Source: Pseudomonas fluorescens
GTDB taxonomy: Bacteria; Pseudomonadota; Gammaproteobacteria; Pseudomonadales; Pseudomonadaceae
Assembly: GCF_001708445.1 (NCBI RefSeq)
Contig: NZ_CP015637.1
Span: 1,985,001 to 2,049,000 of the forward strand
DNA: 64,000 bases
Direction: 5' to 3'
The notes under the pieces were generated by a model. It did no database searches. It was given only the letters and a program-made list of their open reading frames with translations, and was not told the DNA's origin. Within the stretch, counting starts at the first letter, position 1. The number at the start of each line of letters is the position of its first letter. Made by a program: the position numbers and the translations under genes. Shown piece after piece: positions 33,188 to 50,271 of the stretch.

Positions 33188-34386
33188 AGGTTGGCCTCCG
33201 AGGTTTCGGCTGGCATGGCCGGGATAGACGCCGGCGCACGTTGGGTCTTGGCTTCGCGCTTGAGGGCATTGAGGGTGGCCAGGGCGGTGCGCTTGGTCCA
33301 GATCAGCAGGCCGCTCAGGACCATCATGCTCATGATCAGGCCGAAGAACGCCCAGATCAGCTTGATCCACAGCCCGCCAAAGTCGCCGGTGTGCAGCGGG
33401 CGCATGGATTCGGTGACGAACTCCAGCTTCGAGCGGTCGGACAACAAGTGCGCGGCGGCGATTTCCCCGTCATAGGGGTTGATCTGCGCGGTCTGGTACA
33501 TCAGCGGGTACCAGCCGCGCCCGCCGATCTGCAGGTGGCTGTAGGCATTGAGAGGCAGGCTGACGAAACTCGCCTCCAGGCCGGGAATACGCTGGGTGGC
33601 GATCTTGATCGCCTCGTCCACCGGAATCATGGGGGCCGGTACACCGGGTGCAGACAGCGGCACCTTCTCGCGGGCAATCACCGGGATCACCGGTTCAGTG
33701 GAAATCGAAATCTGGTTGTCCCCCAGGATCGCCCGGATCAAGAACCAGATACCGGTGATGGAGATCACCGCAATGAACCAGATCGACCAGATACCGCTCA
33801 AGCGATGGAAATCACCCCAGAAGATCCGCGCACCGTGGCGGATACGCAGGGTCGGGCGCAGGAAGCCTTTCCAGAACCGCTTGTACACCACCAGCCCGGT
33901 GACCAGCGACGCCAGCAGCGGAATACCGAGCGCCGACACCAGGTACCAGCCCCAGCTGTAGCCATTGGTGAACGGCACCAACCACCAGCCGTGCAGGGCA
34001 CGGGTAAATTGCTGGAAGTTGAAGGCCGGGCTGATCCCCTGGATGACCCCGGTGTACGGGTTGACGTAGACCTCGACGGAGCGCCCGTCGGGGTAGCTGA
34101 GGTTGACACTCAGGGCAAAGTGCGACTCATCCGGGCGGCTGATCGACTGCACGATCACCTCGGGCGCGTCACGCTGGATGGCGGCGATCACCTGGTCGTA
34201 ACTCAGCAGTTCGGCGTCGTCCGACGGCTGGCTGGCACGGATATCCGGGTTGGCCAGCCAGACGATCTCCTGGCTGACCACCGCCAGGGTGCCGGTGACG
34301 CAGACGATCAGTACAAAGAACCAGATGGGCAACGCGAGCCAGCTGTGTACAAGAAACCAGAGTTTTGAGCGTGACTTCTTCGACAT
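33184..34386 (-). CDS. fpvG: FpvG, PepSY-type inner-membrane ferripyoverdine reductase
   Basis: ATG at 34386 (MSKKSRSKLWFLVHSWLALP) gives a 400-residue PepSY_TM protein with four membrane helices (about 10-32, 142-165, 190-213 and 345-370). It has paired His residues in and near the helices (LVHSWLALP, RALHGWW, FHRLSGIW, LHTGDFGGL), as in FoxB-type siderophore reductases. FpvG reduces ferripyoverdine iron in the periplasm so that it can be passed to FpvC/FpvF. It is the first gene of fpvGHJKCDEF, behind a possible Fur box. Confidence 0.87.
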   Translation of the reverse strand: MSKKSRSKLWFLVHSWLALPIWFFVLIVCVTGTLAVVSQEIVWLANPDIRASQPSDDAELLSYDQVIAAIQRDAPEVIVQSISRPDESHFALSVNLSYPDGRSVEVYVNPYTGVIQGISPAFNFQQFTRALHGWWLVPFTNGYSWGWYLVSALGIPLLASLVTGLVVYKRFWKGFLRPTLRIRHGARIFWGDFHRLSGIWSIWFIAVISITGIWFLIRAILGDNQISISTEPVIPVIAREKVPLSAPGVPAPMIPVDEAIKIATQRIPGLEASFVSLPLNAYSHLQIGGRGWYPLMYQTAQINPYDGEIAAAHLLSDRSKLEFVTESMRPLHTGDFGGLWIKLIWAFFGLIMSMMVLSGLLIWTKRTALATLNALKREAKTQRAPASIPAMPAETSEANL

Positions 34387-34480
34387 GTGAATGAGGGTCT
34401 TGATCGGAGGGGGCATTGAAGGCCCGGAAAAGGCCGGTCGTAGCTTTTGCTGACGCGACAGGCTGTATCTAAGTTAAGAC

Positions 34481-34499: not shown

Positions 34500-34770
34500 C
34501 TAAGCGGGATATGAAAGAAAATGTTTCAGGTTCACATTCAGGGCGCTTTATCGCCTCCATCGAACACGAAACATGTTCCAAGCCATCACCCAGGCGCCCT
34601 TGCTGCTGGGCCTGGATGCAGTTGGCAGCACCTTGCAGTGCAGCGAAGCGATCAAGGCATTCGAACGCGGCCACCTGCAAGCCAACCCGTGGCTTAACTG
34701 ACCCACGGCCAAACAAATGTGGGAGGTCCCGCTCAATATCCGACTTAGCGCTGTCGCGCAGCAAACTGGA

Positions 34771-34858
34771 ACCCCTGTGGCGAGCGGGCTTGTTGTGGCA
34801 AGCCCTAATGCCGTTCAGTTAAGGCTTTTTTGTAGGAGCGAGCTTGCTCGCGAAGAAC
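34771..34858 (+). repeat. Mosaic REP sequence, copy at the left edge of the 13-kb block
   Basis: The order is a REP core (TGTGGCGAGCGGGCTTG), then GTGGCAAGCCC, then CTAATGCCGTTCAGTTAAGG, then TGTAGGAGCGAGCTTGCTCG and CGAAGAAC. The same series of pieces occurs at 47878-47957, in the same orientation. The promoter remnant begins directly after it. Upstream, 34500-34770 holds only a 42-codon open frame (34573-34701) that I could not support as a gene. Confidence 0.75.
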
Positions 34859-34876
34859 TTACAGGCGCCGCGTGTC

Positions 34877-34985
34877 GAATCTTGCGTAACTCTTTGTTTA
34901 CCAAGGAGTTTTCCGTTTCGACTGCGCCGGAAGTGGGGCGAATTATAGACTTCCAGAATCTGCCGTCAACTCTTTATTTGGAATT
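34877..34985 (-). promoter_or_regulatory. Orphan strong stable-RNA-type promoter (rRNA promoter relic), pointing left
   Basis: On the minus strand TTGACG (34969-34964), a 16-base spacer and TATAAT (34947-34942) form a near-consensus sigma-70 promoter followed by a GC-rich discriminator. About 79 bases downstream a second, degraded copy of the unit occurs: GAATCTTGCGTAACTCTTTG at 34877-34896 versus GAATCTGCCGTCAACTCTTT at 34956-34975, plus strand. Tandem promoters like this stand before rRNA operons in pseudomonads. No RNA gene follows; the series stops at the mosaic REP. The downstream sequence (CGCAGTCGAAACGGAAAACT) also recalls rRNA leaders, from memory only. The interval 34986-35130 shows nothing else. 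Confidence 0.55.
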
Positions 34986-35130
34986 TCTATCAAACCACCG
35001 AAAACACCTGACATTCCTTCTATATAGGACGTGTGGCAGCGATAGTTGGGCAATATATTGCTCATTACTCAACAGTTCAGCATCATAGCGACCTCTGCTT
35101 CTCTACTATGACCTTGGACGACACACCTCA

Positions 35131-36018
35131 ATGACCACCCCACCCCGCAGCCTGGCCTCGGCATTGTTTCCAGTAGGCCTGCTGTTAATCGCCATGGCCT
35201 CCATACAGTCCGGCGCTTCGCTGGCCAAGAGCATGTTCCCTATCATCGGCGCACAAGGCACCACGACCCTGCGCCTGATTTTCGCCAGCGTGATCATGCT
35301 GCTTCTATTGCGCCCCTGGCGCGCAAAGCTGACGGCCAAGTCCCTGCGCACCGTAATCGTCTACGGAATGGCGCTGGGCGGCATGAACTTCCTCTTCTAT
35401 ATGTCCTTGCGCACCGTCCCCCTGGGCATTGCAGTAGCACTCGAATTTACGGGCCCCCTCGCCGTGGCTATCTATGCATCACGGCGAGCGATGGACTTCC
35501 TGTGGATTGCCCTCGCGATCATTGGCCTGCTCCTGCTGATCCCGATGGGGGAAGCCAGCAGTGGCATTGACTTGATCGGCGCGGGCTACGCATTGGGTGC
35601 GGGCGTCTGCTGGGCGCTGTATATCCTGTTTGGCCAAAAAGCCGGCAACGACAACGGCGTACAAACCGCCGCGCTGGGCGTCATGATTGCCGCCCTCTTC
35701 GTCGCACCGATTGGTATCGTCCATGCCGGTACTGCATTGCTGACACCCGCCCTGATCCCTATCGCCATTGGCGTCGCCATTCTGTCCACCGCCTTGCCCT
35801 ATACCCTTGAAATGGTCGCACTGACCCGACTACCCGCCCGCACCTTCGGTACGTTGATGAGCATCGAGCCCGCGTTCGGCGCGCTTTCCGGCCTGTTTTT
35901 CCTGCATGAGCACTTATCCCTCGCCCAATGGCTGGCCATCACCTGCATCATCCTGGCCTCCGTAGGCGCCACATTGACCATGCGCAATGAATCCAAACCA
36001 CTGGTGCCCGCCGACTAA
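35131..36018 (+). CDS. rhtA: Threonine/homoserine exporter RhtA (DMT superfamily)
   Basis: The 295-residue protein has ten predicted membrane helices and two EamA halves. Its length equals that of E. coli RhtA and it shares long recognisable segments: IAMASIQSGASLAKSMFP, VPLGIAVALEFTGPLAVA, AILSTALPYTLEMVALTRLP and RTFGTLMSIEPA. RhtA exports threonine and homoserine across the inner membrane. It stands alone, with about 145 bases of leader after the orphan promoter relic (which points away). Confidence 0.88.
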   Translation: MTTPPRSLASALFPVGLLLIAMASIQSGASLAKSMFPIIGAQGTTTLRLIFASVIMLLLLRPWRAKLTAKSLRTVIVYGMALGGMNFLFYMSLRTVPLGIAVALEFTGPLAVAIYASRRAMDFLWIALAIIGLLLLIPMGEASSGIDLIGAGYALGAGVCWALYILFGQKAGNDNGVQTAALGVMIAALFVAPIGIVHAGTALLTPALIPIAIGVAILSTALPYTLEMVALTRLPARTFGTLMSIEPAFGALSGLFFLHEHLSLAQWLAITCIILASVGATLTMRNESKPLVPAD

Positions 36019-36184
36019 TCATCTTTCGAGGTAGCTCTGGTATTTGCCGCTCATTTAGGCCATGTTTAGTCGGTAAACCAATGTCATTCATGGAGAATTT
36101 CGACAAGGACAGCCCGAACGCTACAATCGAGAGCGAGTAAGGCCAGCTCCAGGCTTTTTTGCGGAGCGGCTATTAAGGATAGGA

Positions 36185-36466
36185 ATGAAGCGAATTTTGA
36201 TACTGTTCATGGTCGTGGCCATTGCTGGCTGTGCCGCGACCACCAAGACAGAAGTGAAGCGGGGCAAAAAAGGGCTGCATATCAACTGTTCGGGCCTGTC
36301 GTCCTCCTGGGACCAGTGCTACACCAGTGCCACCAATTCTTGCGGAGCCAAGGGCTACCGGGTTATCGCCAAATCCGGTGACAATTCCGAGGAGCCTGGG
36401 GACTACCCCTTCGGCCTCAACCCTGCTGGCTACACCAGCCGCAGCATGATCGTCATCTGTAAGTAG
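36185..36466 (+). CDS. Small lipoprotein of unknown function
   Basis: The 93-residue protein has a lipoprotein signal (MKRILILFMVVAIAGC, Cys16) and a short mature domain with GLHINCSGLSSSWDQCYTSA, four further Cys residues and a C-terminal SRSMIVICK. The paired cysteines suggest disulfides. ATG 36185 follows AAGGATAGGA. I recognise no named family. After the stop a short hairpin (GAGCAGTC/GACTGCTC, 36473-36491) lacks a T-run. Confidence 0.8.
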   Translation: MKRILILFMVVAIAGCAATTKTEVKRGKKGLHINCSGLSSSWDQCYTSATNSCGAKGYRVIAKSGDNSEEPGDYPFGLNPAGYTSRSMIVICK

Positions 36467-36572
36467 TCACCCGAGCAGTCCCCGACTGCTCCGATCAAAT
36501 TCCTGACACAAACCTGCCCTTTGCGATGCTGTGGCTACACTCCTGCTTGATCACCGAGCCAAAGGAGTTCCC

Positions 36573-37304
36573 ATGACGCACAACAAGAAAATCGTTTTGG
36601 TAGTGGGTGCGGGCGATGCAACCGGCAGCGCCATTGCCAAACGCTTTGCCCGCGAGGGGTATGTGGCCTGCGTCACCCGTCGCAGCGCCGACAAACTGCA
36701 GCCGCTGGTGGACAGCATCCAGCTGGCGGGCGGCCAAGCCCATGGTTTTGCTTGCGATGCGCGCAAAGAAGAAGGCGTTATCGCACTGATCGAACAGATC
36801 GAAAGCGAACTGGGCCCTATCGAAGTCCTCGTCTTCAATATCGGCGCCAACGTCCCCTGCAGCATCCTGGAAGAAACGGCGCGCAAATACTTCAAGATCT
36901 GGGAGATGGCGTGTTTCTCCGGTTTCCTGAATGCCCGCGAAGTCGCCAAACGCATGGTTACGCGCAACCGCGGCACCATCCTGTTCACCGGCGCCACGGC
37001 AGGTCTGCGTGGAGCTGCAGGGTTTGCCGCGTTCGCCGGCGCCAAGCACGGAATTCGCGCCCTCGCCCAAAGTATGGCGAGGGAATTAGGCCCCCGAGGT
37101 ATCCACGTCGCCCACGTGGTGGTGGACGGCGCTATCGATACCGCGTTCATTCGCGACAATTTTCCGCAGAAATATGCCCTCAAGGATCAGGACGGCATTC
37201 TCAACCCCGACCATATCGCCGATAACTATTGGTTCCTACATAGCCAGCCACGGGACGCCTGGACTTTCGAACTGGACCTGCGCCCCTGGAACGAGCCCTG
37301 GTAG
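36573..37304 (+). CDS. SDR-family protein lacking the usual catalytic Ser/Tyr
   Basis: ATG 36573 follows AAAGGAG. The 243-residue protein is a short-chain dehydrogenase/reductase: coenzyme motif VVGAGDATGSA (Gly12 to Gly18) and NIGAN in place of NNAG at 89-93. The usual YxxxK motif reads F154-AGA-K158, and the segment that normally holds the catalytic Ser reads FTGATAG at 138-144. Thus Tyr is replaced by Phe and Ser is not obvious. It may bind NAD(P) without classical SDR catalysis, or belong to an atypical subgroup. It is 37 bases upstream of a DsbA-fold gene, likely one operon. Confidence 0.8.
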   Translation: MTHNKKIVLVVGAGDATGSAIAKRFAREGYVACVTRRSADKLQPLVDSIQLAGGQAHGFACDARKEEGVIALIEQIESELGPIEVLVFNIGANVPCSILEETARKYFKIWEMACFSGFLNAREVAKRMVTRNRGTILFTGATAGLRGAAGFAAFAGAKHGIRALAQSMARELGPRGIHVAHVVVDGAIDTAFIRDNFPQKYALKDQDGILNPDHIADNYWFLHSQPRDAWTFELDLRPWNEPW

Positions 37305-37341
37305 TCACGCCTCCCATAACAATAAGCAGCGAGCAGCAACC

Positions 37342-37956
37342 ATGAATAAGCCCCTGGAGTTCTTCTTCGACCTCGGCAGTCCCGCCACTTACCTGGCGTA
37401 TACCCAACTCCCTGCCCTGTGCGCCGAAACCGGCGCACTGCTGGTGTATCGGCCAATACTATTAGGGGGCGTATTCAAGGCGACCGGCAACGCTTCCCCG
37501 ATCACCGTCCCCGCCAAAGGTCGCTACCTGTTGGATGACCTGGCGCGATATGCCCGACGCTACAAGGTTGTGCTCAAGTTCAGCCCGCACTTCCCTATCA
37601 ATACGCTGGTATTGATGAGGGCAGTTACCGGCATGCAAATGCACCAACCTGAACGCTTCCAGGCCTTCATCGACTGCCTGTTCCACGCCCTCTGGGTAGA
37701 AGGCCGTCATTTGGGAGACCCCGCCGTCGTGGCCACAGTCCTCACTGAGCAGGGTTTCGATCCGGAACAAATATTGGCCCTGTCCAACGATGAAGTCGTA
37801 AAAGCCGCCCTCAAGGACAACACCGAACGAGCCGTTCAACGCGGGGTGTTTGGTGCGCCCAGCCTGTTTGTAGGAGATCAGTTGTTTTTCGGCCAAGACC
37901 GTCTGGAGTTTGTACGGGAAGCCCTTGGCAACATTTCGATCGTCGACCGCCCTTGA
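37342..37956 (+). CDS. 2-hydroxychromene-2-carboxylate isomerase-like / kappa-class GST (DsbA fold)
   Basis: ATG 37342 (MNKPLEFFFDLGSPATYLAY) gives 204 residues with the DSBA-like thioredoxin fold of the HCCA isomerase/kappa GST family. Ser in FDLGSPATYLA is at the glutathione-activating position, and the C-terminal GVFGAPSLFVGDQLFFGQDRL is the family hallmark. Family enzymes isomerise ring-cleavage products in naphthalene breakdown using glutathione. No aromatic pathway genes are nearby, so the physiological substrate is open. Confidence 0.85.
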   Translation: MNKPLEFFFDLGSPATYLAYTQLPALCAETGALLVYRPILLGGVFKATGNASPITVPAKGRYLLDDLARYARRYKVVLKFSPHFPINTLVLMRAVTGMQMHQPERFQAFIDCLFHALWVEGRHLGDPAVVATVLTEQGFDPEQILALSNDEVVKAALKDNTERAVQRGVFGAPSLFVGDQLFFGQDRLEFVREALGNISIVDRP

Positions 37957-38040
37957 ACGTCCCCTTGCGAACCCGTCTTAGGCGGCAACGATTGAATGGG
38001 GGCTCGGCATTGCGCTGTCGCCCCCCTGAACCGCAACCGA

Positions 38041-39849
38041 TCAAATAGCGGCAGTGCGGACCTGCAACCACTCCAGCGCGGCACCGCTTAGCAATGGGCT
38101 CAAACGCTCCCGCACCTCGGCGTGGTAGGCGTTGAACCACTGGCGCTCATCAGCCGTCAACAACGATGGCTCCAGGCAACGTGTATCGATGGGGCACAAG
38201 GTCAGGGTTTCGAACGAGAGGAACTCACCAAACTCGGTCTTGCCCGCTTCACGGTTCAATACCAGGTTCTCGATGCGCACGCCCCAACGGCCTGGGCGAT
38301 ATGTACCGGGCTCAATCGAGGTGATCATGCCAGGCTGCATCGCGGTTTGCGGTGCGGTCGCGGCCTGATAGGCGATCACCTGTGGGCCCTCATGCACATT
38401 GAGGAAATAGCCTACGCCGTGACCGGTACCGTGGCCGTAGTCCACGCCCTCAGCCCAGATCGGCGCCCGCGCGATCGAATCCAACAGCGGCGAGAGGATA
38501 CCCTTGGGGAAATGCGCACGGGACAGGGCGATCACACCTTTGAGTACCCGGGTACAGTCGCGCTTCTGCTCCTCGCTCGGCGTACCGATGGGCACCATCC
38601 GCGTGATATCCGTCGTGCCGCCCAGGTACTGGCCGCCCGAGTCGATCAACAGCAGGCCATCACCTTCGATCAGCGCGTGCTCTTCTTCAGTGGCATGGTA
38701 ATGCGGCATGGCGCCATTGGCGTTGAAGGCCGCAATAGTGTTGAAACTCAGTGAAACATAACCCGGGCGACGGGCGCGTGCAGCCGTTAAATGTTCGTCG
38801 ATGGTCAGCTCGGTAATGCGTTCACGCCCCAGGGCGCTGTCGAGCCAGGCGAAGAATTCGCACAACGCCGCGCCATCCTGTTCCATGGCCTGGCGGATAT
38901 GTTCAGCATCGGCCAAGCTCTTGCGAGACTTGGCCAGCGTGGTCGGGTTCAATCCTTCGACCAACTTGACCCCCGCATCGAGATGCTCAAGCAAACCGGC
39001 AGTCACACGTGCTGGATCAACCTGCAAACTGGCGCCCGGCGGCACAGCACGCAATGCATCAGCCACTTCGCTGTAATCGCGTAGCGTCACCCCATCCCGC
39101 GCCAACGTGGCACGCAACTCGGCATCGACCTTGCCCAGTGCCACGAACAAGGTGGCCTGCTGCTGATTGACCAGGGCAAAGGACACAAACACCGGGTTGA
39201 ACGACACATCGCCGCCGCGCAGATTGAACAGCCACGCAATGTCGTCCAGCGTCGCAATGAAGTGCCAGTCGGCGCCCCGCTCTTTCAAGCTGCTGCGCAG
39301 TGCGGCAAGTTTCTCGCCACGGCTAACGGTGGCCTGGGGCGGCAGATGCGGGTAGATCGGTTGATTCGGCAACGGCGGCCGGTCTTGCCAGACCTCATTC
39401 AACAGGTCGATATCGGTACGCAAGCGCGCGCCACGCTCCGCCAGCTTGCTGCCCAGGGTTCGCGCCGAGGCCACGGCCATGACCGCACCGTCGACCGCCA
39501 CCACACCGCCTTCCGGGGTTTGTTCGGCCAGCCATTCCAACGGACCGGGTTGGCCGGGTTGCAGTTTTACCAACTCGATACCGCTGCCCTTGAGCTCCTT
39601 GCTCGCCTGTTCCCAGTAACGGCTGTCAGCCCAGACACCGGCGAAGTCCGCGGTGACAATCAGTGTCCCGACCGAACCATGAAACCCCGACAACCACTGG
39701 CGACCCTGCCAGTAGCCGGGCAGGTATTCGGACAAGTGTGGGTCGGCCGACGGCACCAGCAGGGCGTGAATGCCCTCGCGGCTCATCAGTTCACGGGTAT
39801 GCGCAAGGCGCTGGGGCACCGTTCCATGGGTCAAAGGCTGCGTACTCAT
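38041..39849 (-). CDS. Xaa-Pro aminopeptidase (aminopeptidase P family, M24B)
   Basis: ATG 39849 (MSTQPLTHGTVPQRLAHTRE) yields 602 residues, the length of the three-domain, eukaryote-like aminopeptidase P form. Two creatinase-like N-terminal domains (about 15-145 and 165-310) precede the M24 pita-bread domain. Its metal ligands are visible: LLIDSGGQY and GTTDITR (Asp pair), GHGTGHGVG (His), SIEPGTY (Glu) and RIENLV (Glu). It removes N-terminal residues preceding proline. It is separated from the cysteine desulfurase gene upstream by about 50 bases, same strand. Confidence 0.9.
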   Translation of the reverse strand: MSTQPLTHGTVPQRLAHTRELMSREGIHALLVPSADPHLSEYLPGYWQGRQWLSGFHGSVGTLIVTADFAGVWADSRYWEQASKELKGSGIELVKLQPGQPGPLEWLAEQTPEGGVVAVDGAVMAVASARTLGSKLAERGARLRTDIDLLNEVWQDRPPLPNQPIYPHLPPQATVSRGEKLAALRSSLKERGADWHFIATLDDIAWLFNLRGGDVSFNPVFVSFALVNQQQATLFVALGKVDAELRATLARDGVTLRDYSEVADALRAVPPGASLQVDPARVTAGLLEHLDAGVKLVEGLNPTTLAKSRKSLADAEHIRQAMEQDGAALCEFFAWLDSALGRERITELTIDEHLTAARARRPGYVSLSFNTIAAFNANGAMPHYHATEEEHALIEGDGLLLIDSGGQYLGGTTDITRMVPIGTPSEEQKRDCTRVLKGVIALSRAHFPKGILSPLLDSIARAPIWAEGVDYGHGTGHGVGYFLNVHEGPQVIAYQAATAPQTAMQPGMITSIEPGTYRPGRWGVRIENLVLNREAGKTEFGEFLSFETLTLCPIDTRCLEPSLLTADERQWFNAYHAEVRERLSPLLSGAALEWLQVRTAAI

Positions 39850-39898
39850 TGTGTCTCCTGCTAACCACGAATAATTGTTATGTGCTGCAAATGGATAA

Positions 39899-41059
39899 TC
39901 AGACCGCCCAGAACGCCGGTGCACTGGCAAGGGCGGCCTTGATCAATTGCACAGCCTGGTCGATATCCTGTTCGGTGGTAAACCGGCCCAGGCTCAGGCG
40001 AATGGTTCGAGCGGCGGAGCGTGCATCATGGCCCAGGGCCAGAAGGACGTGGGACGGTGCATTGCTGGCCGAGTTGCAGGCCGACGTCGCCGAAAAGGCG
40101 ATACCGGCACTCAGGGCGGCAGAATTGAATTCGCCTTCGCCGAACGTCAGGCTGAGGGTGTGCGGAATACGCTGCGCCGGGCTGCCATTGAGGCGTACGC
40201 CTGCCACCGGTGCCAACTGATCCAGCAGGCGCTGGCGCAAAGCCACGATCCGGGCCTTCTCCTCCGCAAAAGACTCCGCCGCCAAGGCAAACGCCGCCCC
40301 CATGCCCGCGATTTGATGCGTCGCCAGGGTGCCGGAACGCAAACCGCCCTCATGGCCACCGCCATGAATCTGCGCAGATACCTTCTGCTGGGCCCGAGGC
40401 CCGACATACAACGCGCCGATGCCCTTGGGACCGTACAGCTTGTGGGCGGAAAATGACATCAGGTCCACCGGCCATTGCGTCAGGTCGATAGCCACCTTGC
40501 CCGCCCCTTGCGCCGCGTCCACATGCAGCAACGCACCCTGCGCCCGCACTCGCGCGCCAATCGCCGGAATGTCATTGAGGGTACCCAGTTCGTTGTTCAC
40601 CAGCATCAGCGACACCAGGAAGGTGTCCTCACGCAAGGCTTCGCTGACCGCCTCGACACTGATCAAGCCATCGGCATCCGGCACCAGGTAGGTCACGGCC
40701 ACCCCGGCGTCCTGCAACTGCCGCGCGGTATCCAGGGTTGCCTTGTGCTCGATCTGGCTGGTGATGATATGCCCGCCCGCCACGCCACGCGCCTGGGCCA
40801 CGCCCTTGATCGCAAGGTTGTTGGATTCAGTGGCTCCGGAGGTCCAGACGATCTGTCCTGGCTCGGCGCCCACCAGCTCGGCCACCTGGCGACGTGCCTG
40901 TTCAACCGTTTGCCGGGCCGCTTGGCCGAACGCATGGGAACTGGACGCAGGGTTGCCAAAGTTGGCATTGAAGCCCAGGCACTCGACCATCACCTGGATG
41001 ACCCGCTCATCCACCGGCGTGGTGGCGGCGTAGTCGAAATACAGCGGACGTTTATTCAT
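39899..41059 (-). CDS. Cysteine desulfurase (NifS/IscS class I)
   Basis: ATG 41059 (MNKRPLYFDYAATTPVDERV) gives 386 residues. PLP-enzyme features are ATESNNLAIKG, EHKATLD, NNELGTLNDIP, HVDAAQGAGK and the PLP Lys in SFSAHKLYGPKG. The mobile-loop Cys is in SATSACNSAS. It converts cysteine to alanine with a persulfide on the enzyme. No iscU, iscA or hscAB genes are nearby, so this is a stand-alone paralogue rather than the housekeeping IscS. It is not obviously linked to the sulfonate genes, which lie on the other strand about 0.9 kb away. Confidence 0.9.
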   Translation of the reverse strand: MNKRPLYFDYAATTPVDERVIQVMVECLGFNANFGNPASSSHAFGQAARQTVEQARRQVAELVGAEPGQIVWTSGATESNNLAIKGVAQARGVAGGHIITSQIEHKATLDTARQLQDAGVAVTYLVPDADGLISVEAVSEALREDTFLVSLMLVNNELGTLNDIPAIGARVRAQGALLHVDAAQGAGKVAIDLTQWPVDLMSFSAHKLYGPKGIGALYVGPRAQQKVSAQIHGGGHEGGLRSGTLATHQIAGMGAAFALAAESFAEEKARIVALRQRLLDQLAPVAGVRLNGSPAQRIPHTLSLTFGEGEFNSAALSAGIAFSATSACNSASNAPSHVLLALGHDARSAARTIRLSLGRFTTEQDIDQAVQLIKAALASAPAFWAV

Positions 41060-41233
41060 GACGTTAAAGACTCGCAGAGCAGGTTCCCGAGAGCAGCGTC
41101 TCAGGGGCATCGACCGGAACAGAGGTGGTCAGGTTTACCTGGTCAAATGCCATTAGAAAAGGATGACTTTATGTAAATGTGCGTAGGAACGCTCCTGAAA
41201 TTCAGCTTAACAGGCTGAAGTCGCTCCATGGCA

Positions 41234-41273
41234 AACAAAAAACCCGAGATTCCTTAAGGGAAACCTCGGGTTC
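41234..41273 (-). terminator. Rho-independent terminator downstream of small lipoprotein gene
   Basis: On the minus strand GAACCCGAG / CTCGGGTT forms the stem, with an additional inner TTCC/GGAA pairing, followed by six T. It starts about 20 bases after the lipoprotein stop at 41293. Confidence 0.8.
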
Positions 41274-41292
41274 TTCAGCACGGCGCAGCCAC

Positions 41293-41562
41293 TCAACTGG
41301 GGCGCCCATGCAAGGTCACGCTGCGCTCGGCATTCATTTCACCCTGGCGATCAAAACCGAAGGGCTTCTGTGGCTGGCCGGTCAGTGCGGCGCGCTGCTG
41401 TTGGTATTCATCAAACGACAAGCCGCGACGGCTCAGCGCTTCCAGAGCCAATTGCTTGGTTTCTTCAGCGGTGTAAGGACGTGATTCCGGTGAGGGATGT
41501 GTCGCACAGCCGGTGAGGAAGGAAGCGACAAGTAATACGCAAACAGCGAGTGACTGGTTCAT
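41293..41562 (-). CDS. Small lipoprotein of unknown function
   Basis: ATG 41562 gives an 89-residue protein with lipobox FLTGC (MNQSLAVCVLLVASFLTGC, Cys19). The hydrophilic mature part includes YTAEETKQLALEALSRRGLSFDEYQQQR. ATG 41601 would add 13 residues before the signal and is unlikely. A strong terminator follows. I recognise no domain. Confidence 0.75.
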   Translation of the reverse strand: MNQSLAVCVLLVASFLTGCATHPSPESRPYTAEETKQLALEALSRRGLSFDEYQQQRAALTGQPQKPFGFDRQGEMNAERSVTLHGRPS

Positions 41563-41789
41563 GGCGAAGGCTCTGCGAAGGAGGTGTAAGTCAATGAACA
41601 CAGGCTACTCCCGCCCCCGCACAGTGAAAAATCATCGTCCGTGATAGTCGCTATCACCCGCCGCGACACCCTCGATAACCAGGCCAACATATTCTTTTAC
41701 GATCTATTAATATGGAAATACGTTCATTTACGGAATAAAAACAACCCACTATAACTAGCTGCACGCCGGGCCCCAGTGTTCGCCAGGCA

Positions 41790-41809
41790 ACTGTTGCGCA
41801 GGCAACAGT
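41790..41809. promoter_or_regulatory. Candidate SfnR enhancer (upstream activating) site
   Basis: ACTGTTGC-GCAG-GCAACAGT is a perfect 8-bp inverted repeat 84 bases upstream of the sigma-54 element, a usual distance for a bacterial enhancer-binding protein. A related half-site, GACAACAGCAAC, lies at 41831-41842. It may be the target of SfnR, encoded at the end of the operon. Confidence 0.5.
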
Positions 41810-41892
41810 CATTCAACAATTCACCAGGCAGACAACAGCAACACTTTTCAGCAGTGAGCCTGTAACCCGCAGCCGGCAAGGCCTGCGCCCAT

Positions 41893-41908
41893 TGGTACAG
41901 CTCTTGCT
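41893..41908 (+). promoter_or_regulatory. Sigma-54 promoter of msuE-msuD-msuC-sfnR
   Basis: TTGGTACAGCTCTTGCT has the invariant GG (41894-41895), exactly ten bases, and GC (41906-41907), close to consensus TGGCAC-N5-TTGC. The msuE ATG is about 50 bases downstream, preceded by AAAAGGAAC. Other than this, the enhancer site and the start of the lipoprotein gene, the 41563-41958 gap holds nothing I recognise. Confidence 0.65.
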
Positions 41909-41958
41909 CAGCCCACGTACTTCACTCGCAATGAACCACTGTTGAAAAGGAACTGTTC

Positions 41959-42522
41959 ATGACCCGTCCCCTGAATGTCGTTGCCCTCTCCGGCGGAACC
42001 TGGCGCCCGTCCCGTACCCTGGTGCTGACCCAAGCGGTACTCGCCGAACTGGCCAGCCTGCTGCCGATCCAGACCACCCTGATCGAACTGGGCGACATTG
42101 CCCGGCCACTGGGCGGCGCGCTGTCGCGCGATGAGCTGCCAGCAGAGATCGAAGCGCAACTGGTGACCATCGAGCAAGCCGACCTGCTGATCGTCGCCGC
42201 ACCGGTCTATCGCGGCTCTTATCCCGGCCTGCTCAAGCACCTGTTCGACCTGGTCGGCCTCAACTCGCTGATCAACACGCCGGTATTGCTCGCAGCCACC
42301 GGCGGCAGCGATCGCCATGCACTGGTCCTCGATCACCAACTGCGGCCGTTATTCAGCTTCTTCCAGGCCTTGACCTTGCCGATTGGCGTGTATGCCACCG
42401 AAGCCGACTTCACCGACTACCAAATAACCAGCGAGCCCTTGAAGGGCCGTATTCGTCTTGCTGCAGAACGCGCGGCGCCCTTGTTTGCCGCGCACTCCAC
42501 TTCTCTGCTGAAAATCGCTTAA
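41959..42522 (+). CDS. msuE: NADH-dependent FMN reductase of methanesulfonate metabolism
   Basis: The 187-residue flavodoxin-like FMN reductase has SGGTWRPSRTLVL (phosphate-binding loop) near the start and VAAPVYRGSYPGLLKHLFDL in the middle. It supplies FMNH2 to the monooxygenases encoded next. The order msuE-msuD-msuC-sfnR and the sigma-54 promoter match the pseudomonad methanesulfonate operon. It ends 9 bases before msuD. Confidence 0.88.
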   Translation: MTRPLNVVALSGGTWRPSRTLVLTQAVLAELASLLPIQTTLIELGDIARPLGGALSRDELPAEIEAQLVTIEQADLLIVAAPVYRGSYPGLLKHLFDLVGLNSLINTPVLLAATGGSDRHALVLDHQLRPLFSFFQALTLPIGVYATEADFTDYQITSEPLKGRIRLAAERAAPLFAAHSTSLLKIA

Positions 42523-42531
42523 GGATCTGTC

Positions 42532-43671
42532 ATGGATGTTTTCTGGTTCCTGCCAACACATGGCGACGGTCATTACCTGGGCACAACCCAAGGTGCGCGG
42601 CCAGTCACCCTCAACTATCTGAAACAGGTCGCCCAAGCGGCTGACAGCCTTGGCTACTACGGCGTACTGATTCCAACCGGCCGCTCGTGCGAAGACTCCT
42701 GGGTCATCGCCTCGGCGTTGGCCCCCCTGACAGAACGCCTGCGCTACCTGGTGGCGATTCGTCCGGGCATCATCTCGCCCACGGTGTCGGCGCGCATGGC
42801 GGCGACCCTCGATCGCCTGTCCAATGGCCGCTTGCTGATCAACGTGGTGACTGGCGGTGACCCTGACGAAAACCGTGGCGACGGCAGCTTCCTCGATCAC
42901 AGCGAGCGCTATGAAGTCAGCGACGAATTCCTCAAGATCTGGCGCCGTGTGTTGCAGGGCGAATCGGTGGACTTTGAGGGTAAGCACCTGCGCGTGCAGA
43001 ATGCCAAGGCGCTTTACCCGCCCGTGCAGAAGCCGTACCCACCGCTGTATTTCGGCGGTTCTTCGGACGCCGCCCATGACCTCGCCGCCGAACAGGTGGA
43101 CGTGTACCTGACCTGGGGTGAACCCCCGGCCGCCGTCGCGGAAAAACTCGCGGATGTGCGTGAACGGGCCGCGCGTCATGGCCGCACCGTGAAGTTCGGC
43201 ATCCGCCTGCATGTGATCGTGCGCGAGACCGAAGAAGACGCCTGGAAAGCCGCCGACAAACTGATCGAGCACATCAGCGACGACACCATCGCCGCGGCAC
43301 AAAAATCGTTTTCGCGCTTTGACTCCGAAGGTCAGCGCCGCATGGCCGCCCTGCACGACGGGCGCCGCGACAACCTGGAAATCGCCCCCAACCTGTGGGC
43401 CGGTGTCGGCCTGGTACGCGGTGGTGCCGGCACCGCGCTGGTGGGCAACCCGCAGCAAGTGGCCGAGCGCATCAAGGAATACGCAGACCTGGGCATCGAG
43501 AGCTTTATCTTCTCCGGCTACCCGCACCTGGAAGAGGCGTATCGCTTTGCCGAGTTGGTGTTCCCGTTATTGCCGGAACCTTATGCCAGCCTGGCCGGGC
43601 ACGGCATCACCAACCTGACGGGGCCGTTCGGCGAAATGATCGCCAACGATGTACTGCCCGCCAAGCCCTGA
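42532..43671 (+). CDS. msuD: FMNH2-dependent methanesulfonate monooxygenase
   Basis: The 379-residue TIM-barrel luciferase-like enzyme is of the SsuD/MsuD group. Segments include [55 protein letters not shown] and [20 protein letters not shown]. Using FMNH2 and O2 it cleaves the C-S bond of short alkanesulfonates to sulfite and aldehyde, providing sulfur. It follows msuE and precedes msuC, with a REPIN in the 147-base gap. Confidence 0.88.
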
Positions 43672-43690
43672 GATCAATGAAGCCTGCCTT

Positions 43691-43780
43691 AGGTGGGAGG
43701 CGGCTTGCCCCCGATTGCGGCGGGTCAGCCCCGTAACTGGCAACTGACACACCGCTATCGGGGCAAGCCCGCTCCCACCT
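43691..43780. repeat. REPIN inside the msu operon
   Basis: AGGTGGGAGGCGGCTTGCCC and GGGCAAGCCCGCTCCCACCT are inverted around a spacer with GATTGCGGCG / CGCTATCGG extensions. It lies between msuD and msuC and probably forms a stable hairpin in the operon transcript. Confidence 0.85.
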
Positions 43781-43818
43781 TTGGCCTTCATTGCCAAATA
43801 GACATTGAGGAACACCGC

Positions 43819-45006
43819 GTGACAGCCAAACCCCACAGCGTCCTGCCCTCCCCTTTGCAGACCGCCAAGTTGCTGGCCGCCGATTTCGCCCTCACCGCCG
43901 TCGAACGCGACGAACGCGGTGGCACGCCGAAAACCGAACGGGATGCCCTGCGCCAAAGCGGCCTGCTGGCCCTGAGTATTCCCACCCAATACGGTGGCCT
44001 CGGCGCACGTTGGAGTGACACCCTGGGCATCGTGCGCGAGTTCGCCAAGGTCGACAGCTCAATCGCCCATGTCTTCGGCTTCCACCACCTGATGCTCGCC
44101 ACCGTGCGCCTGTTTTCGCGCCAGGACCAATGGCAACCCTGGTTCGAACAGACCGCGCGCCAGAACTGGTTCTGGGGCAACGCCCTCAACCCGCTGGACA
44201 CACGCACGGTAGTCAAGGATTTCGGCGGCTGGCGCGAATTTTCCGGCAAGAAGAGCTTCTGCTCCGGCGCCAGCGATTCAGAAATGCTCATCGCCTCGGC
44301 CGTGGATGAAAGCGCTGGCGGCAAGTTGCTGATCGCCGCCATCCCCAGCGGGCGCAGCGGCATCACCCTGCACAACGACTGGAACAATATCGGCCAGCGC
44401 CAGACCGACAGCGGCAGCGCCAGCTTCGAACGGGTACGCGTGGAGGAATCGGAACTGCTGCTCGACCCCGGCCCGCTGAGCACACCCTTCGCCTGTCTGC
44501 GCCCACTGATCGCCCAGCTGACCTTTACCCATATGTTCCTCGGGATTGCCGAAGGGGCCTTCGAAGAAGCACGCCATTACACCCTGACCGAAACCCGTTC
44601 GTGGCACAAATCCAGCGCCGAGGACGTGCGCCAGGACCCTTACGTGCTGCACCACTACGGTGAGTTCTGGGTGGCCCTGGAAGGTGTGCGCCTGCTGGTG
44701 GAACGCGCCGCCGAATTGCTCGACCGCGCCTGGGCCAAAGGCCCCGGCCTCAGCGAAAACGAACGCGGCCAACTGGCCATCGCGATCGCCACCGCCAAGG
44801 TTGCCGCCAGCCGCCAAGGCCTGGAGCTGTGCAGCCGCCTGTTTGAAGTCACCGGCGCGCGGTCCACCCATGCTTCGCTGCGCCTGGACCGCCACTGGCG
44901 CAACCTGCGCACGCAAACCCTGCACGACCCCGTGGACTACAAACTCCACGAACTCGGGGACTGGGCATTGAACCAATCCCTGCCGACTCCCACGTTCTAT
45001 TCCTAA
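43819..45006 (+). CDS. msuC: Acyl-CoA-dehydrogenase-like flavin monooxygenase MsuC
   Basis: GTG 43819 follows GAGGAACACC. The 395-residue protein has the acyl-CoA dehydrogenase/DszC fold (SIPTQYGGLGARWSDTLGIVRE, FAKVDSSIAHVFGFHHLM, LEVTGARSTHASLRLDRHWRNLRTQTLHDP split across the C-terminal half). Members oxidise organosulfur compounds with reduced flavin; MsuC is proposed to act on methanesulfinate. A longer in-frame extension to 43693 reads through the REPIN and is unlikely. It is followed by sfnR after 11 bases. Confidence 0.85.
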   Translation: MTAKPHSVLPSPLQTAKLLAADFALTAVERDERGGTPKTERDALRQSGLLALSIPTQYGGLGARWSDTLGIVREFAKVDSSIAHVFGFHHLMLATVRLFSRQDQWQPWFEQTARQNWFWGNALNPLDTRTVVKDFGGWREFSGKKSFCSGASDSEMLIASAVDESAGGKLLIAAIPSGRSGITLHNDWNNIGQRQTDSGSASFERVRVEESELLLDPGPLSTPFACLRPLIAQLTFTHMFLGIAEGAFEEARHYTLTETRSWHKSSAEDVRQDPYVLHHYGEFWVALEGVRLLVERAAELLDRAWAKGPGLSENERGQLAIAIATAKVAASRQGLELCSRLFEVTGARSTHASLRLDRHWRNLRTQTLHDPVDYKLHELGDWALNQSLPTPTFYS

Positions 45007-45017
45007 GAGAGGTGCCC

Positions 45018-46109
<1,092 letters not shown>

Positions 46110-46121
<12 letters not shown>

Positions 46122-46475
46122 GCGACAGTGCAACGCGTTGTCATGGCTGCGCTCGAAACTGCGCAGCACCTGGAACGAACCGAAGGTCACGGCCGTGGCC
46201 TGGTGGGCGCGAATCAATGTCCAGAAATCTTCCTCTCCATGCTCGAAACACTTGAAGGCCGCCTCGCCGTCTTCACGCGAGCGCCATTGCAGGTAATTGA
46301 GCACCCGTCGTCCGTCATCGCTGACTTGCACACTCGCATTGATAAAGCCGCCATGGCCCTGGGCCAGACGTTCGCTCTGAATAGTCAGGGCTGCCACCAG
46401 GGCAGATTGTTGCCGGGGTTCGATCTGAAACTCGATCAATTGAGTGAAGCTGCGATTTTTCTCTGATACCTGCAT
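46110..46475 (-). CDS. Antibiotic biosynthesis monooxygenase (ABM) domain protein, SoxR-controlled
   Basis: ATG 46475 follows AGGGGAGTG and gives 121 residues with one ABM ferredoxin-like domain (FTQLIEFQIEPRQQSALVAAL through INASVQVSDDGRRVLNYLQW). Such proteins oxidise quinone-like small molecules or degrade haem without a prosthetic group. Its upstream region has a 19-bp-spaced promoter with a SoxR box, and soxR is divergent. This repeats the soxR/monooxygenase pair known as a SoxR target in P. aeruginosa. Confidence 0.82.
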
Positions 46476-46524
46476 GAACACTCCCCTTTCTCTGTAGGCA
46501 GAATCTTGCGATTCGATGCCACGC

Positions 46525-46555
46525 AGGGTAAAACCTCTAGTTAAGTCAAGGTCAA
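46525..46555 (-). promoter_or_regulatory. SoxR-controlled promoter with SoxR box
   Basis: On the minus strand TTGACC (46555-46550), a 19-base spacer and TACCCT (46530-46525) form the over-long spacer typical of MerR-family promoters. The box CCTCTAGTTAAGTCAAGG (46534-46551, plus strand) matches 14 of 18 positions of the SoxR consensus CCTCAAGTTAACTTGAGG. It drives the ABM gene and sits 24 bases before the soxR ATG, suggesting autoregulation. Confidence 0.8.
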
Positions 46556-46575
46556 GCGCTTCTCTGGAGTTTTTC

Positions 46576-47025
46576 ATGCTCAACAAGGAACTCACCGTCG
46601 GCCAATTGGCCGCGCGCAGTGGCGTTGCGGTCACGGCGCTGCACTTCTATGAATCCAAAGGGTTGATCAAGAGCAACCGTAACGCTGGCAACCAGCGCCG
46701 TTACCCACGGGATGTATTGCGGCGCGTGGTGGTGATCAAGATCGCCCAGCGCTTGGGCATTCCCCTGGCGACGATTGGCCAGGCATTACAGACGCTGCCG
46801 GATGGTCGTACGCCGACCACTGAGGATTGGGAGCGTTTGTCGGCGCTGTGGCGAGAGGATCTGGATGAGCGCATCAACAAGTTGATACTGCTGCGCGACA
46901 AGCTCAGTGGTTGTATTGGCTGCGGGTGTTTGTCGCTGCAAGCGTGCCCGCTGCGTAATCAGGCTGACCAGCTCGGTGAACATGGGCCTGGGGCCCAGCT
47001 GTTGGAACCCACGCCGCAATCCTGA
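46576..47025 (+). CDS. soxR: Redox-sensing transcriptional activator SoxR
   Basis: The 149-residue MerR-family protein has the N-terminal winged helix ([26 protein letters not shown]), a dimerisation helix, and the [2Fe-2S] ligands Cys113, Cys116, Cys118 and Cys124 in the SoxR spacing CX2CXCX5C. SoxR is activated by oxidation of the cluster, in pseudomonads mainly by redox-active dyes and phenazine-like compounds. No soxS is present. The ATG at 46576 is favoured because the longer frame runs through the SoxR box. Confidence 0.94.
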
Positions 47026-47263
47026 GTTGGGAATGCGCCCCCCCTTTGATCGCCATGGGTTTTAGAAACCCGGTGCGATATCACTTTCGTCACGCGTCAG
47101 GATGAACTGGCGCAGTTCACCGCGATTGAACGCCTTGCCGCCACGGCATGCACAGGTCGCCGATGCTGTCCGGCCGACACCTCGTCGGCTGCCTGCAAGC
47201 CACGATCGGCGTGGCCTATAGTGAAAAGGCCGTCCCTCCACAACCACAATCAAGGAGAACGAT

Positions 47264-47722
47264 ATGAGCGTTAAGCCTATTCCCGAGGGCTACCACAGCG
47301 TCACGCCTTATATGGGCATCGACAAAGCGAGTGATGCCATCGATTTCTACAAAAAAGCCTTTGGCGCCACACAGGTCATGCGCCTGGATATGCCCGATGG
47401 CAAAGTCGGCCATGCCGAGCTGCGCATTGGCGACTCGGCGATCATGCTGGGCTCACCCTGCGAGGAAATGGCCCTGCGTAATCCGGGCGAGCACACCAGT
47501 GTCGGTTTGCACCTGTATGTGAACGATGTGGACGCGCAATTCAAGCAAGCCGTGGCGGCAGGCGCCACCGTAGTGTCCGAACCGAAGGACCAGTTTTATG
47601 GCGACCGGTCGGCGAGCGTGAAGGATCCGTTCGGTCACCTGTGGTTCCTGGCCACGCGCAAGGAGGATTTGACCGAAGCACAGATCCGCGAACGTGCCAT
47701 GGACATGTTCAAGCAAGGCTGA
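47264..47722 (+). CDS. VOC-family (glyoxalase/PhnB-like) protein
   Basis: The 152-residue protein begins with IPEGYHSVTPYMGIDKASDAIDFY, the opening of the PhnB/3-demethylubiquinone-like VOC group. It has VGLHLYVNDVDAQFKQAV and SASVKDPFGHLWFLATRKEDL in the second beta-alpha-beta-beta-beta unit. ATG 47264 follows AAGGAGAACG. VOC proteins include isomerases, dioxygenases and resistance proteins; the function here is unknown. The 47026-47263 gap upstream contains a minus-strand open end (GKAFNRGELRQFILTRDESD) that I cannot assign. Confidence 0.85.
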   Translation: MSVKPIPEGYHSVTPYMGIDKASDAIDFYKKAFGATQVMRLDMPDGKVGHAELRIGDSAIMLGSPCEEMALRNPGEHTSVGLHLYVNDVDAQFKQAVAAGATVVSEPKDQFYGDRSASVKDPFGHLWFLATRKEDLTEAQIRERAMDMFKQG

Positions 47723-47741
47723 AGTCTATGAGGCGATACAA

Positions 47742-47805
47742 CTTGCTCCTGATAACGGTGGATCAGTTGACATTTAATTGACTGATGTACGGCCATCGGG
47801 AGCAA
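47742..47805. repeat. Degenerate REP inverted repeat
   Basis: TTGCTCCTGATAACGGT and ACGGCCATCGGGAGCAA are imperfect inverted repeats around 30 bases. They resemble the elements at 21607-21676 and 25887-25976 but are more diverged. Confidence 0.55.
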
Positions 47806-47823
47806 ACCTCCTCTTATAAAACA

Positions 47824-47957
47824 AAATAACTTATTGATTATTAAGAATTAAAATCCTCCCTTAAACGACCGAATTTTTGTGGCAAGCGGGCTTGCCCTAA
47901 TGCCATTCAGTTAAGCGTACATCGCCTTCTGTAGGAGCGAGCTTGCTCGCGAAAAAC
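47824..47957 (+). repeat. Composite repeat: AT-rich segment plus mosaic REP, copy B
   Basis: 47824-47850 is identical over 27 bp to the minus strand of the element at 10861-10918. It continues CCTCCC-TTAAACGACCG and TTGTGGCAAGCGGGCTTGCC, then CCTAATGCCATTCAGTTAAG, then CTGTAGGAGCGAGCTTGCTC and CGAAAAAC. The second part repeats the order found at 34771-34858. The 5S remnant begins 7 bases after it. Confidence 0.75.
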
Positions 47958-47964
47958 GTCAACG

Positions 47965-48034
47965 GTAGTGAAACGATGCATCGCCGATGGTAGTGTGGGG
48001 TTTCCCCATGTGAGAGTAGGTCATCGTCAAGATT
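47965..48034 (+). rRNA. Truncated 5S rRNA (3' part only)
   Basis: From GTAGTGAAACGATGCATCGC to about 48034 the sequence is the textbook 3' part of bacterial 5S rRNA, including the helix IV/loop E region (CGCCGATGGTAGTGTGGGGT, CCCCATGTGAGAGTAGG). Only about 70 of 120 nt are present; the 5' part and all of 23S and 16S are missing, replaced by REP sequence. Its normal downstream terminator follows. It cannot fold as a full 5S and is a relic of an rRNA operon. Confidence 0.9.
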
Positions 48035-48041
48035 AAATTCC

Positions 48042-48078
48042 GAAACCCCATTTGCGAAAGCAGATGGGGTTTTGTTTT
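48042..48078 (+). terminator. rRNA-operon terminator downstream of the 5S remnant
   Basis: AAACCCCAT / ATGGGGTTT with an inner TGC-GAAA-GCA hairpin is followed by TTGTTTT. It starts 8 bases after the 5S 3' end, the usual layout after a 5S gene. Confidence 0.88.
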
Positions 48079-48378
48079 GGGCGGTCGAAAAGCGCAGGCG
48101 CAAGCGTGCTCACGCAGGACGACAACGCTGACGCGCACCCTCGGGTTGGCATCCCACCATCCTGATGGCATGTTGGCCCGAGTGACGCCTGGCTGTTGGA
48201 GCATAGATACCCATCTGAATTTTGACTCAACTACACAAAACAACTCTTCCAGAGTGCCGTTGGGGAAATCGATGCAAAGTGTTTCTTCATTTTTGGTATG
48301 GTGCAGCACATTTTCACAAGGATTGATTTTTCATCCGCAGGACGCGGCGTCGACCTTCTTCAACGAGATGCTGTAGAA
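48079..48378. other. Post-rRNA-operon flank and PBP2 leader, no gene supported
   Basis: These 300 bases between the rRNA terminator and the PBP2 ATG contain a minus-strand frame (from 48309) that reads back through the 5S relic and is not a credible gene. The part to about 48200 resembles sequence I recall downstream of rRNA operons in pseudomonads. No clear promoter or Shine-Dalgarno for the PBP2 gene was found; GAGAT lies about 10 bases before its ATG. Confidence 0.4.
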
Positions 48379-50271
48379 ATGCCTGAACCCATACCGATTA
48401 AAGATCACGAAAAAGAAAACCGTTTGGTCAACAAACGTCTGCTCGCCTGCGCGCTGTTGGTGATTGGCATCACCTGTGCCTTGGTGGGCCGCATGTATTT
48501 CCTGCAGGTAGTGCAGTTCGACTATCACTCGACGATTTCTGAAAACAACCGGGTCCATGTCCTGCCCATTACGCCCACCCGCGGCCTTATTTATGACCGC
48601 AACGGGGTTGTGCTGGCTGACAACCGTCCCAGCTACAACCTGACCATTACCCGCGAGCGCACCACGGATCTCAAAGGTGAACTCGACGCCATCGTCAACC
48701 TGCTGCACCTGCCCGCCGAAGACCGTGCCGTGTTCGATAAGGCACTCAAGCAAGCACGCCACCCCTTCGTCCCTGTCACACTGTTTTACGAGTTGACGGA
48801 AGAGCAGATAGCCGTATTGGCGGTGAATGAATTCCGGCTTCCCGGGGTCGATGTGGAGCCACAGTTCGTTCGCCACTACCCGCTGGGTGCGCACTTCGCT
48901 CACTCCATCGGCTATGTCGGCCGTATCAACGAAAAAGAATCCAAGGCCCTGGATTCGGTGGAGTACCGCGGTACGCAATCCATTGGTAAAACCGGCATCG
49001 AGCGCTTCTACGAGTCTGAACTGCATGGTCATGTCGGCTATGAAGAAGTCGAGACCAATGCTCAGGGCCGGGTATTGCGCGTGCTGAAGCATACGGACCC
49101 GATCCCCGGCAAAAACATCGTCCTGAGCCTGGACGTCAAACTCCAGGAAGCGGCTGAAGAAGCCCTGGGCGATCGTCGTGGTTCGGTGGTCGCCCTTGAC
49201 CCGCAAACCGGCGAAGTACTGGCCATGGTCAGCAAACCGAGCTTCGACCCGAATCTGTTCGTTACCGGTATCAGCTTCAAGGAATACGCCGCGCTGCACG
49301 ACTCGATCGACCGGCCACTGTTCAACCGCGTATTGCGCGGGCTCTATGCCCCAGGCTCAACCATCAAGCCGGAAGTGGCGATTGCCGGTCTCGACAGTGG
49401 CGTCGTCACAGCCCAAACCCGCGTCTTCGACCCCGGTTACTACCAACTGCCGGACTTTGACCATAAATACCGCAACTGGAACCACAGTGGCGACGGCTGG
49501 GTGGACATGGACGCGGCCATCATGCGTTCCAACGATACCTACTTCTACGACCTTGCCCACAAGCTGGGGATCGACCGCTTGCACGACTATCTGGCCGAAT
49601 TCGGCCTTGGCCAGAAGGTCTCACTGGACATGTTCGAAGAGTCCGCTGGCTTGATGCCATCCCAGGCCTGGAAGCGTGCAACAAGGCGCCAACCCTGGTT
49701 CCCGGGTGAAACCGTGATCCTCGGAATCGGCCAGGGCTATATGCAGGTCACGCCGCTGCAACTGGCTCAAGCCACCGCGTTGATCGCCAACAAAGGTGTG
49801 TGGAACCGACCGCACTTGGCCAAGACCATCAATGGCGTGCCGCCGGTGGATGAGAACCCCATGCCCAACGTGGTCCTCAAGGATCCGCGCGATTGGGAGC
49901 AGGTCAACCACGGTATGCAATTGGTAATGCACGACCCGCGCGGTATCGCCCGGGCTGCTGCGCTTGGCGCCCAATATCGTATTGCTGGTAAGAGCGGTAC
50001 CGCGCAGGTAGTGGCAATCAAGCAGGGGGAGCGCTACAACCGCAACAAGACCCTGGAGCGCCATCGCGACAACGCCTTGTTCGTCGGCTTCGCACCAGCG
50101 GAACACCCGAAAATCGTGATCTCGGTGATGATCGAAAACGGCGAGGCGGGCGGACGTGTGGCAGGCCCTGTAGTGCGCCAGATCATGGACGCCTGGCTAC
50201 TCGACCAGGAAGGCCACTTGAAGCCGCAATATGCGACCCCGAGCAAGGCACCGGGCGACCCGCACGTCTGA
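48379..50271 (+). CDS. mrdA: Penicillin-binding protein 2 (transpeptidase), isolated copy
   Basis: The 630-residue class B PBP has an N-terminal membrane anchor (about 20-45), a pedestal domain with RGLIYDRNGVVLADNRPSYN, and the transpeptidase domain. Active-site motifs are S327-TIK, S384-ND and K538-SGT. Segments such as MPEPIPIKDHEKENRL and FVRHYPLGAHFAHSIGYVGRI identify the PBP2 (elongation) type rather than FtsI. The usual neighbours rodA, rlpA, mltB and dacA are absent, so this is probably an extra PBP2 paralogue. It starts 345 bases after the 5S relic, and the junction suggests it once stood downstream of an rRNA operon. Confidence 0.88.
   Translation: MPEPIPIKDHEKENRLVNKRLLACALLVIGITCALVGRMYFLQVVQFDYHSTISENNRVHVLPITPTRGLIYDRNGVVLADNRPSYNLTITRERTTDLKGELDAIVNLLHLPAEDRAVFDKALKQARHPFVPVTLFYELTEEQIAVLAVNEFRLPGVDVEPQFVRHYPLGAHFAHSIGYVGRINEKESKALDSVEYRGTQSIGKTGIERFYESELHGHVGYEEVETNAQGRVLRVLKHTDPIPGKNIVLSLDVKLQEAAEEALGDRRGSVVALDPQTGEVLAMVSKPSFDPNLFVTGISFKEYAALHDSIDRPLFNRVLRGLYAPGSTIKPEVAIAGLDSGVVTAQTRVFDPGYYQLPDFDHKYRNWNHSGDGWVDMDAAIMRSNDTYFYDLAHKLGIDRLHDYLAEFGLGQKVSLDMFEESAGLMPSQAWKRATRRQPWFPGETVILGIGQGYMQVTPLQLAQATALIANKGVWNRPHLAKTINGVPPVDENPMPNVVLKDPRDWEQVNHGMQLVMHDPRGIARAAALGAQYRIAGKSGTAQVVAIKQGERYNRNKTLERHRDNALFVGFAPAEHPKIVISVMIENGEAGGRVAGPVVRQIMDAWLLDQEGHLKPQYATPSKAPGDPHV

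Follow-up and report, generated by a model that had tools for sequence, protein, structure and literature searches.

Separated rRNA operon halves and a reversed 13-kb block in a Pseudomonas fluorescens genome are very probably an artefact of assembly

Chromosomal inversions mediated by rRNA arise by homologous recombination between oppositely oriented operons. Repetitive extragenic palindromic (REP) sequences occur in fluorescent pseudomonads as REPINs or paired REP arrays. When reads are assembled through a de Bruijn graph with k = 77, each contig shares 77 bases with a collapsed repeat that it borders, and a few longer matches arise by chance. The passages of the riboSeed paper that deal with rRNA repeats state that de novo assembly collapses rDNAs, and there joins across rDNA that conflict with the orientation of the reference are classed as 'incorrect' (PMC6009695). 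Here we analyse a stretch of 64,000 nucleotides from Pseudomonas fluorescens (the window), comprising bases 1985001-2049000 of a 6,641,144-bp assembly in a single contig. It contains the promoter end and the 5S end of an rRNA operon, lying on either side of a 13-kb block that runs from the exporter gene rhtA to a VOC gene, and followed by a PBP2 gene. The genome itself is coded G000:C1, comparison genomes are coded G002-G185, and loci L045-L085.

The half operons and the flipped block are almost certainly an artefact of assembly, in which short-read contigs would have been wrongly joined at repeats. A sequence-only reading of the window had proposed an inversion in the genome together with loss of the 16S and 23S genes. 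The part that concerned relatives has stood, i.e. the block is reversed there and an intact operon lies upstream of the PBP2 gene, but the inversion and gene loss have not. All five loci found are cut alike, with common bases and 77-base overlaps, and only one full 5S was found. The features of the window on which the argument turns are as follows.

33184..34416, minus strand: gene with a PepSY_TM domain (Pfam PF03929, PF03413), the last long gene of the putative left contig
34797..34873, plus strand: REP-mosaic end of the putative left contig, a 77-base stretch where many own-genome alignments stop (own-genome search)
34873..34874, no strand: first putative false contig join, where the REP end meets the rRNA leader (from the shared end base of the promoter halves)
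34874..34969, minus strand: promoter of an rRNA operon with the beginning of its leader, truncated before 16S (own-genome copies and relatives)
34874..47964, no strand: contig-like block, in the orientation opposite to that in relatives (comparison with relatives)
35131..36018, plus strand: EamA-family exporter (Pfam PF00892), the rhtA of the sequence-only reading
47264..47722, plus strand: VOC (glyoxalase-superfamily) gene (Pfam PF00903), the last gene of the block
47878..47957, plus strand: REP mosaic closing the block, which forms the minus arm of a REP pair once the block is turned back (own-genome searches)
47964..47965, no strand: second putative false contig join, where the REP end meets the interior of 5S (own-genome comparison)
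47965..48086, plus strand: 3' part of a 5S rRNA with the operon terminator (own-genome copies)
48382..50271, plus strand: PBP2 gene downstream of an rRNA operon (by the position of orthologues at seven loci)

Both ends of the operon can be recognized in the window. The sequence enters the 5S gene in mid-gene at 47965, and continues through the end of the gene and the operon terminator. From this position onward, 121-122 bases recur with 100% identity at three other places in the own genome, and the sequence is 90-100% identical to the 5S ends upstream of PBP2 in relatives. These matches confirm that the 3' part of a 5S rRNA and its terminator begin here, although the truncated 5S was not called by Rfam at gathering scores. 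On the minus strand the leader following the promoter at 34874-34969 breaks off abruptly at 34874. The promoter has four further copies in the own genome, and its 96 bases are 100% identical to positions 5533375-5533470. The promoter region aligns just upstream of 16S in six relatives, where the alignments reach window positions 34867-34902 and 16S starts 436-478 bases beyond the alignment end. The rRNA identity of the promoter, which the sequence-only reading had surmised, is therefore established. A promoter of a tRNA or other stable-RNA gene was also considered, and is ruled out by the location upstream of 16S. The operon order in relatives agrees with the further proposal that promoter and 5S end belong to one operon as its opposite ends, and the REP series described as directly preceding each of them in the same orientation are both present.

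The window is not an isolated case. Five promoter halves and five 5S halves were found in the own genome, the pair in the window included. Only one full 5S was found, at 739197 on the minus strand, where it is joined to ~520 bases of the 3' end of 23S. The 5S search scored 40 of 362 candidates and the promoter search 40 of 381, and with the operon of a relative as query all 23 own-genome candidates were scored. The ten flanks of these halves pair at five operon places in G024. In this assembly they are directly seen to be separated, partner halves being 13, 13, 127, 228 and 259 kb apart. The 17 own-genome loci around the half sites were read completely, which leaves no room for an operon concealed next to them. 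Four relatives searched with the rRNA operon have 5-6 operon places each, and the count of halves (five plus five, with one full 5S carrying a 23S end) fits that number, as a collapsed repeat should. One collapsed copy together with five pairs of loose ends thus suggests that five operons collapsed in a short-read assembly. An rRNA relic should show a loss local to one operon; five loci are halved alike.

The cuts themselves are observed directly and fall at the same bases. All five promoter halves stop after AAGATTCGAC, and there they are joined end to end to other repeat families, i.e. to a REP array in four cases and to the end of an insertion sequence (IS) in one. Four of the 5S halves begin at GTAGTG, after a REP array (one), two different IS ends and other DNA (one). 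The fifth begins seven bases earlier, again after a REP array, so that the 5S halves adjoin two REP arrays, two IS ends and one other sequence. The exact stretch that the 5S halves have in common with the full copy is 77 bases in all five. This includes the shifted half, which diverges from the full copy seven bases earlier, matching the shift of its start. In the window the 77 bases are positions 47965-48041, which equal the end of the full 5S copy. The most divergent promoter half has 77, 77, 78 and 84 bases in common with the other four.

The same length recurs at mobile elements. Two IS elements, which carry IS3-like (integrase core plus transposase helix-turn-helix) and IS110-family transposases, are present as stubs of 78, 77, 77, 77 and 77 bases and of 83, 80, 78, 78 and 77 bases. 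The outer end of the first IS forms the start of the assembly and is matched again by the final 77 bases. The overlap is therefore near constant, as for collapsed repeats, being 77 for 5S, 77-84 on the promoter side and 77-83 for the IS stubs. REP ends follow the rule less strictly than rRNA and IS ends do. By exact search the REP end of the block at 47964 has 80, 77 and 39-59 (three loci) bases in common with five own-genome loci; the REP-mosaic end at 34797-34873 has two own-genome matches that are 100% identical.

One IS end is present as stubs of 77-78 bases at G000:C1:1-500, 6641068-6641144, 3948449, 5512321, 5842251 and 6406522. The IS-end stub sites are likely to be further contig joins, making the gene order elsewhere in the genome doubtful.

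These data bear on whether the rearrangement could be real. The block might have inverted between a REP array and an rRNA operon, while 16S, 23S and most of 5S were lost from the locus. Its reversal with respect to six relatives, with the operon at the expected place, is what such an event would give, and rRNA-mediated exchange does seem to occur in the group, judged by a swap of flanks between G010 and G024. Yet all five loci detected carry matching cuts, only a single full 5S attached to a 23S end was found, and the 77-base overlaps are seen at rRNA and IS ends alike. The event would have had to recur five times, each time with a different partner. We consider it very improbable, and reject inversion plus deletion on the grounds of the five loci cut alike and the 77-base overlaps. 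There is a similarly slim chance that a real inversion between rRNA operon and REP array moved the rhtA-VOC block and cut the operon, in an assembly that is also broken at rRNA elsewhere. Shuffling of the whole genome, with loss of rRNA operons and breaks in the chromosome at rRNA, IS and REP sites, would account for the separation of all five operon flank pairs. However, a fixed overlap of 77 bases is characteristic of an assembly graph, and we know of no biological reason for it; moreover, the four relatives searched keep their 5-6 operon places. Genome-wide shuffling is rejected on both counts, and has even less to commend it than the inversion.

The explanation that we favor is that the 77-base overlaps are the mark of a de Bruijn assembly with k = 77, whose contigs were probably chained without gaps. 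The strain would have five rRNA operons. Its short reads would have been assembled via the graph, where the near-identical operons would collapse into one contig while each flanking contig kept 77 common bases. All contigs would then have been concatenated without N gaps into one pseudochromosome of 6.64 Mb. The contig of the block (34874-47964), with rRNA leader at one end and a REP array at the other, would have been inserted backwards, and the operon between rhtA and PBP2 omitted, as its collapsed copy sits elsewhere. The junctions at 34873/34874 and 47964/47965 would both be false contig joins. The assembler, the value of k and a concatenation made without read support are inferred.

The gene order in relatives was read directly, and on both sides of the block in six of them (G002, G004, G005, G011, G024 and G025). 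All six show the other orientation, in agreement with the inverted order that had been predicted. The region ending at ~34.5 kb leads into the block at its VOC side (window 47722), and from there the block runs in reverse toward rhtA, with the PepSY_TM gene of the left flank on the VOC side. The gap between left-flank and VOC alignments is 56-139 bp in four relatives, and 1.2 and 4.5 kb in two. The alignment extends to the promoter in G024, G025, G004 and G005, while the pieces from G002 and G011 end in or before the promoter. A junction like that at 34873/34874 is missing from the relatives read. Window 34601-34701, between left-flank gene and REP array, has a 77% match in G005 located between VOC and the left-flank gene, which supports the adjacency of these two genes. 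Otherwise a search with window 34549-34873 in seven genomes gave mostly REP-like repeat matches.

At the other end of the block, six relatives have an rRNA operon beside rhtA, with its 16S side facing the gene. An intact operon stands between rhtA and the PBP2 gene in five of six contiguous relatives; L054 (G025), L069 (G024), L074, L085 and G005 have all three, and L045 and L075 have the operon and the PBP2 gene. In seven loci including G005, PBP2 orthologues thus stand behind an intact rRNA operon, as the sequence-only reading had anticipated. This order was read in those six of 80 related loci with at least 5.5 kb upstream, plus G005. G010 is the exception, in that rhtA is beside an operon without the PBP2 gene there, and its best PBP2 match, 76% identical, is elsewhere. 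Over the 9.6 kb from the PBP2 gene onward, the twelve best matches among the 80 related Pseudomonas loci show 84-86% identity. The stretch from VOC to 5S was searched in 199 genomes of the genus (193 with a match), scoring two candidates per genome and reading them by eye, and among the matches listed no other genome joins VOC to the 5S end as in the window. In G029, G129, G131, G149 and G185 the two are 16-22 kb apart on opposite strands, as in relatives. A contig edge lies upstream of the PBP2 gene within 1 kb in 51 of the 80 public loci, within 3 kb in 73 and within 10 kb in 76; the 5S end is still upstream of the gene in 53. The operon upstream of PBP2 is a routine break point of draft assemblies.

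A separate observation concerns two single-contig relatives. The G010 operons at 773456 and 5478733 and the G024 operons at 632524 and 5272596 have reciprocally swapped flanks. This is likely a real rRNA-mediated inversion in the group.

The REP sequences provide a further indication of the original orientation. The REP linker CTAATGCCGTTCAGTTAAG, present at window 34805-34823, has 112 copies in the own genome with at most one mismatch, and 0, 0, 0, 0, 0 and 1 copies in six relatives. The difference in abundance is far beyond chance, and the mosaic family is perhaps a lineage-specific REPIN-like expansion. Where linkers are no more than 300 bp apart, 21 neighbors are '+-', 2 are '++' and none '-+' (for 100 of the 112 copies). 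Turning the block back makes its two flanking REP series into a '+-' pair between the left-flank gene and VOC. The two series look like the arms of one REP array where two contigs ended.

It might still be that the joins are false and the block is nevertheless truly inverted in this strain, as the contig of the block ends in repeats on both sides and its true orientation is unreadable from the assembly. The other orientation is found in six of six relatives tested, however, and restores the '+-' REP pair, and we regard a coincidence of this kind as scarcely credible. Going by relatives, the ancestral orientation is far more likely to be that of the strain, though it cannot be read from this assembly.

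A number of points weigh against an origin in assembly. Some common stretches are 78-84 bases instead of exactly 77, although chance matches extending past a join are expected. The DNA in front of the 5S half at 5519904 belongs neither to REP nor to either of the two IS elements. The full rRNA copy is known from its 5S and ~520 bases of 23S, its 16S was not seen, and further rRNA could lie in unread stretches of the genome. A 16S family search of the own genome gave no matches, but detected only 9 of 14 controls and was not used as proof of absence. The flank pairing of the fifth operon comes from a single relative, G024, taken as circular; a sixth operon of G024 is without a counterpart among the loci compared, and in G010 the flanks of operons 3 and 4 are matched crosswise. 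A further point is the rating of the assembly, a single contig scored as 100% complete. Lastly, the putative false joins are deduced from the assembled sequence.

If short-read contigs were wrongly joined as we propose, a genome listed with a single contig and 100% completeness can in fact consist of such contigs chained without gaps. Gene order and rearrangements across the rRNA, IS and REP sites of this genome should then not be trusted. Operon halves that are separated, with a constant overlap of length k, provide a test that requires the assembly only, and could flag other such records.

How does the locus compare with the known systems? Like an rRNA-mediated inversion, it has an inverted block with rRNA at one end. 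It departs from such an inversion in ending at a REP array on the other side, in lacking the operon body and in being cut within 5S. The breakpoints are an rRNA leader and a REP array rather than inverted copies of the same repeat, and neither end of the block has the operon body that whole hybrid operons would provide. The likeness to REPINs and paired REP arrays lies in the many copies, mostly '+-' where two stand close, but here one arm is at each contig end, and these arms give no sign of driving an inversion. The case resembles most closely the collapsed rRNA repeats described in the riboSeed paper, where contigs end in rDNA or its flanks (PMC6009695). It differs from the case set out in those passages in that the contigs here have seemingly been fused into one gapless pseudochromosome, so that the breaks are hidden.
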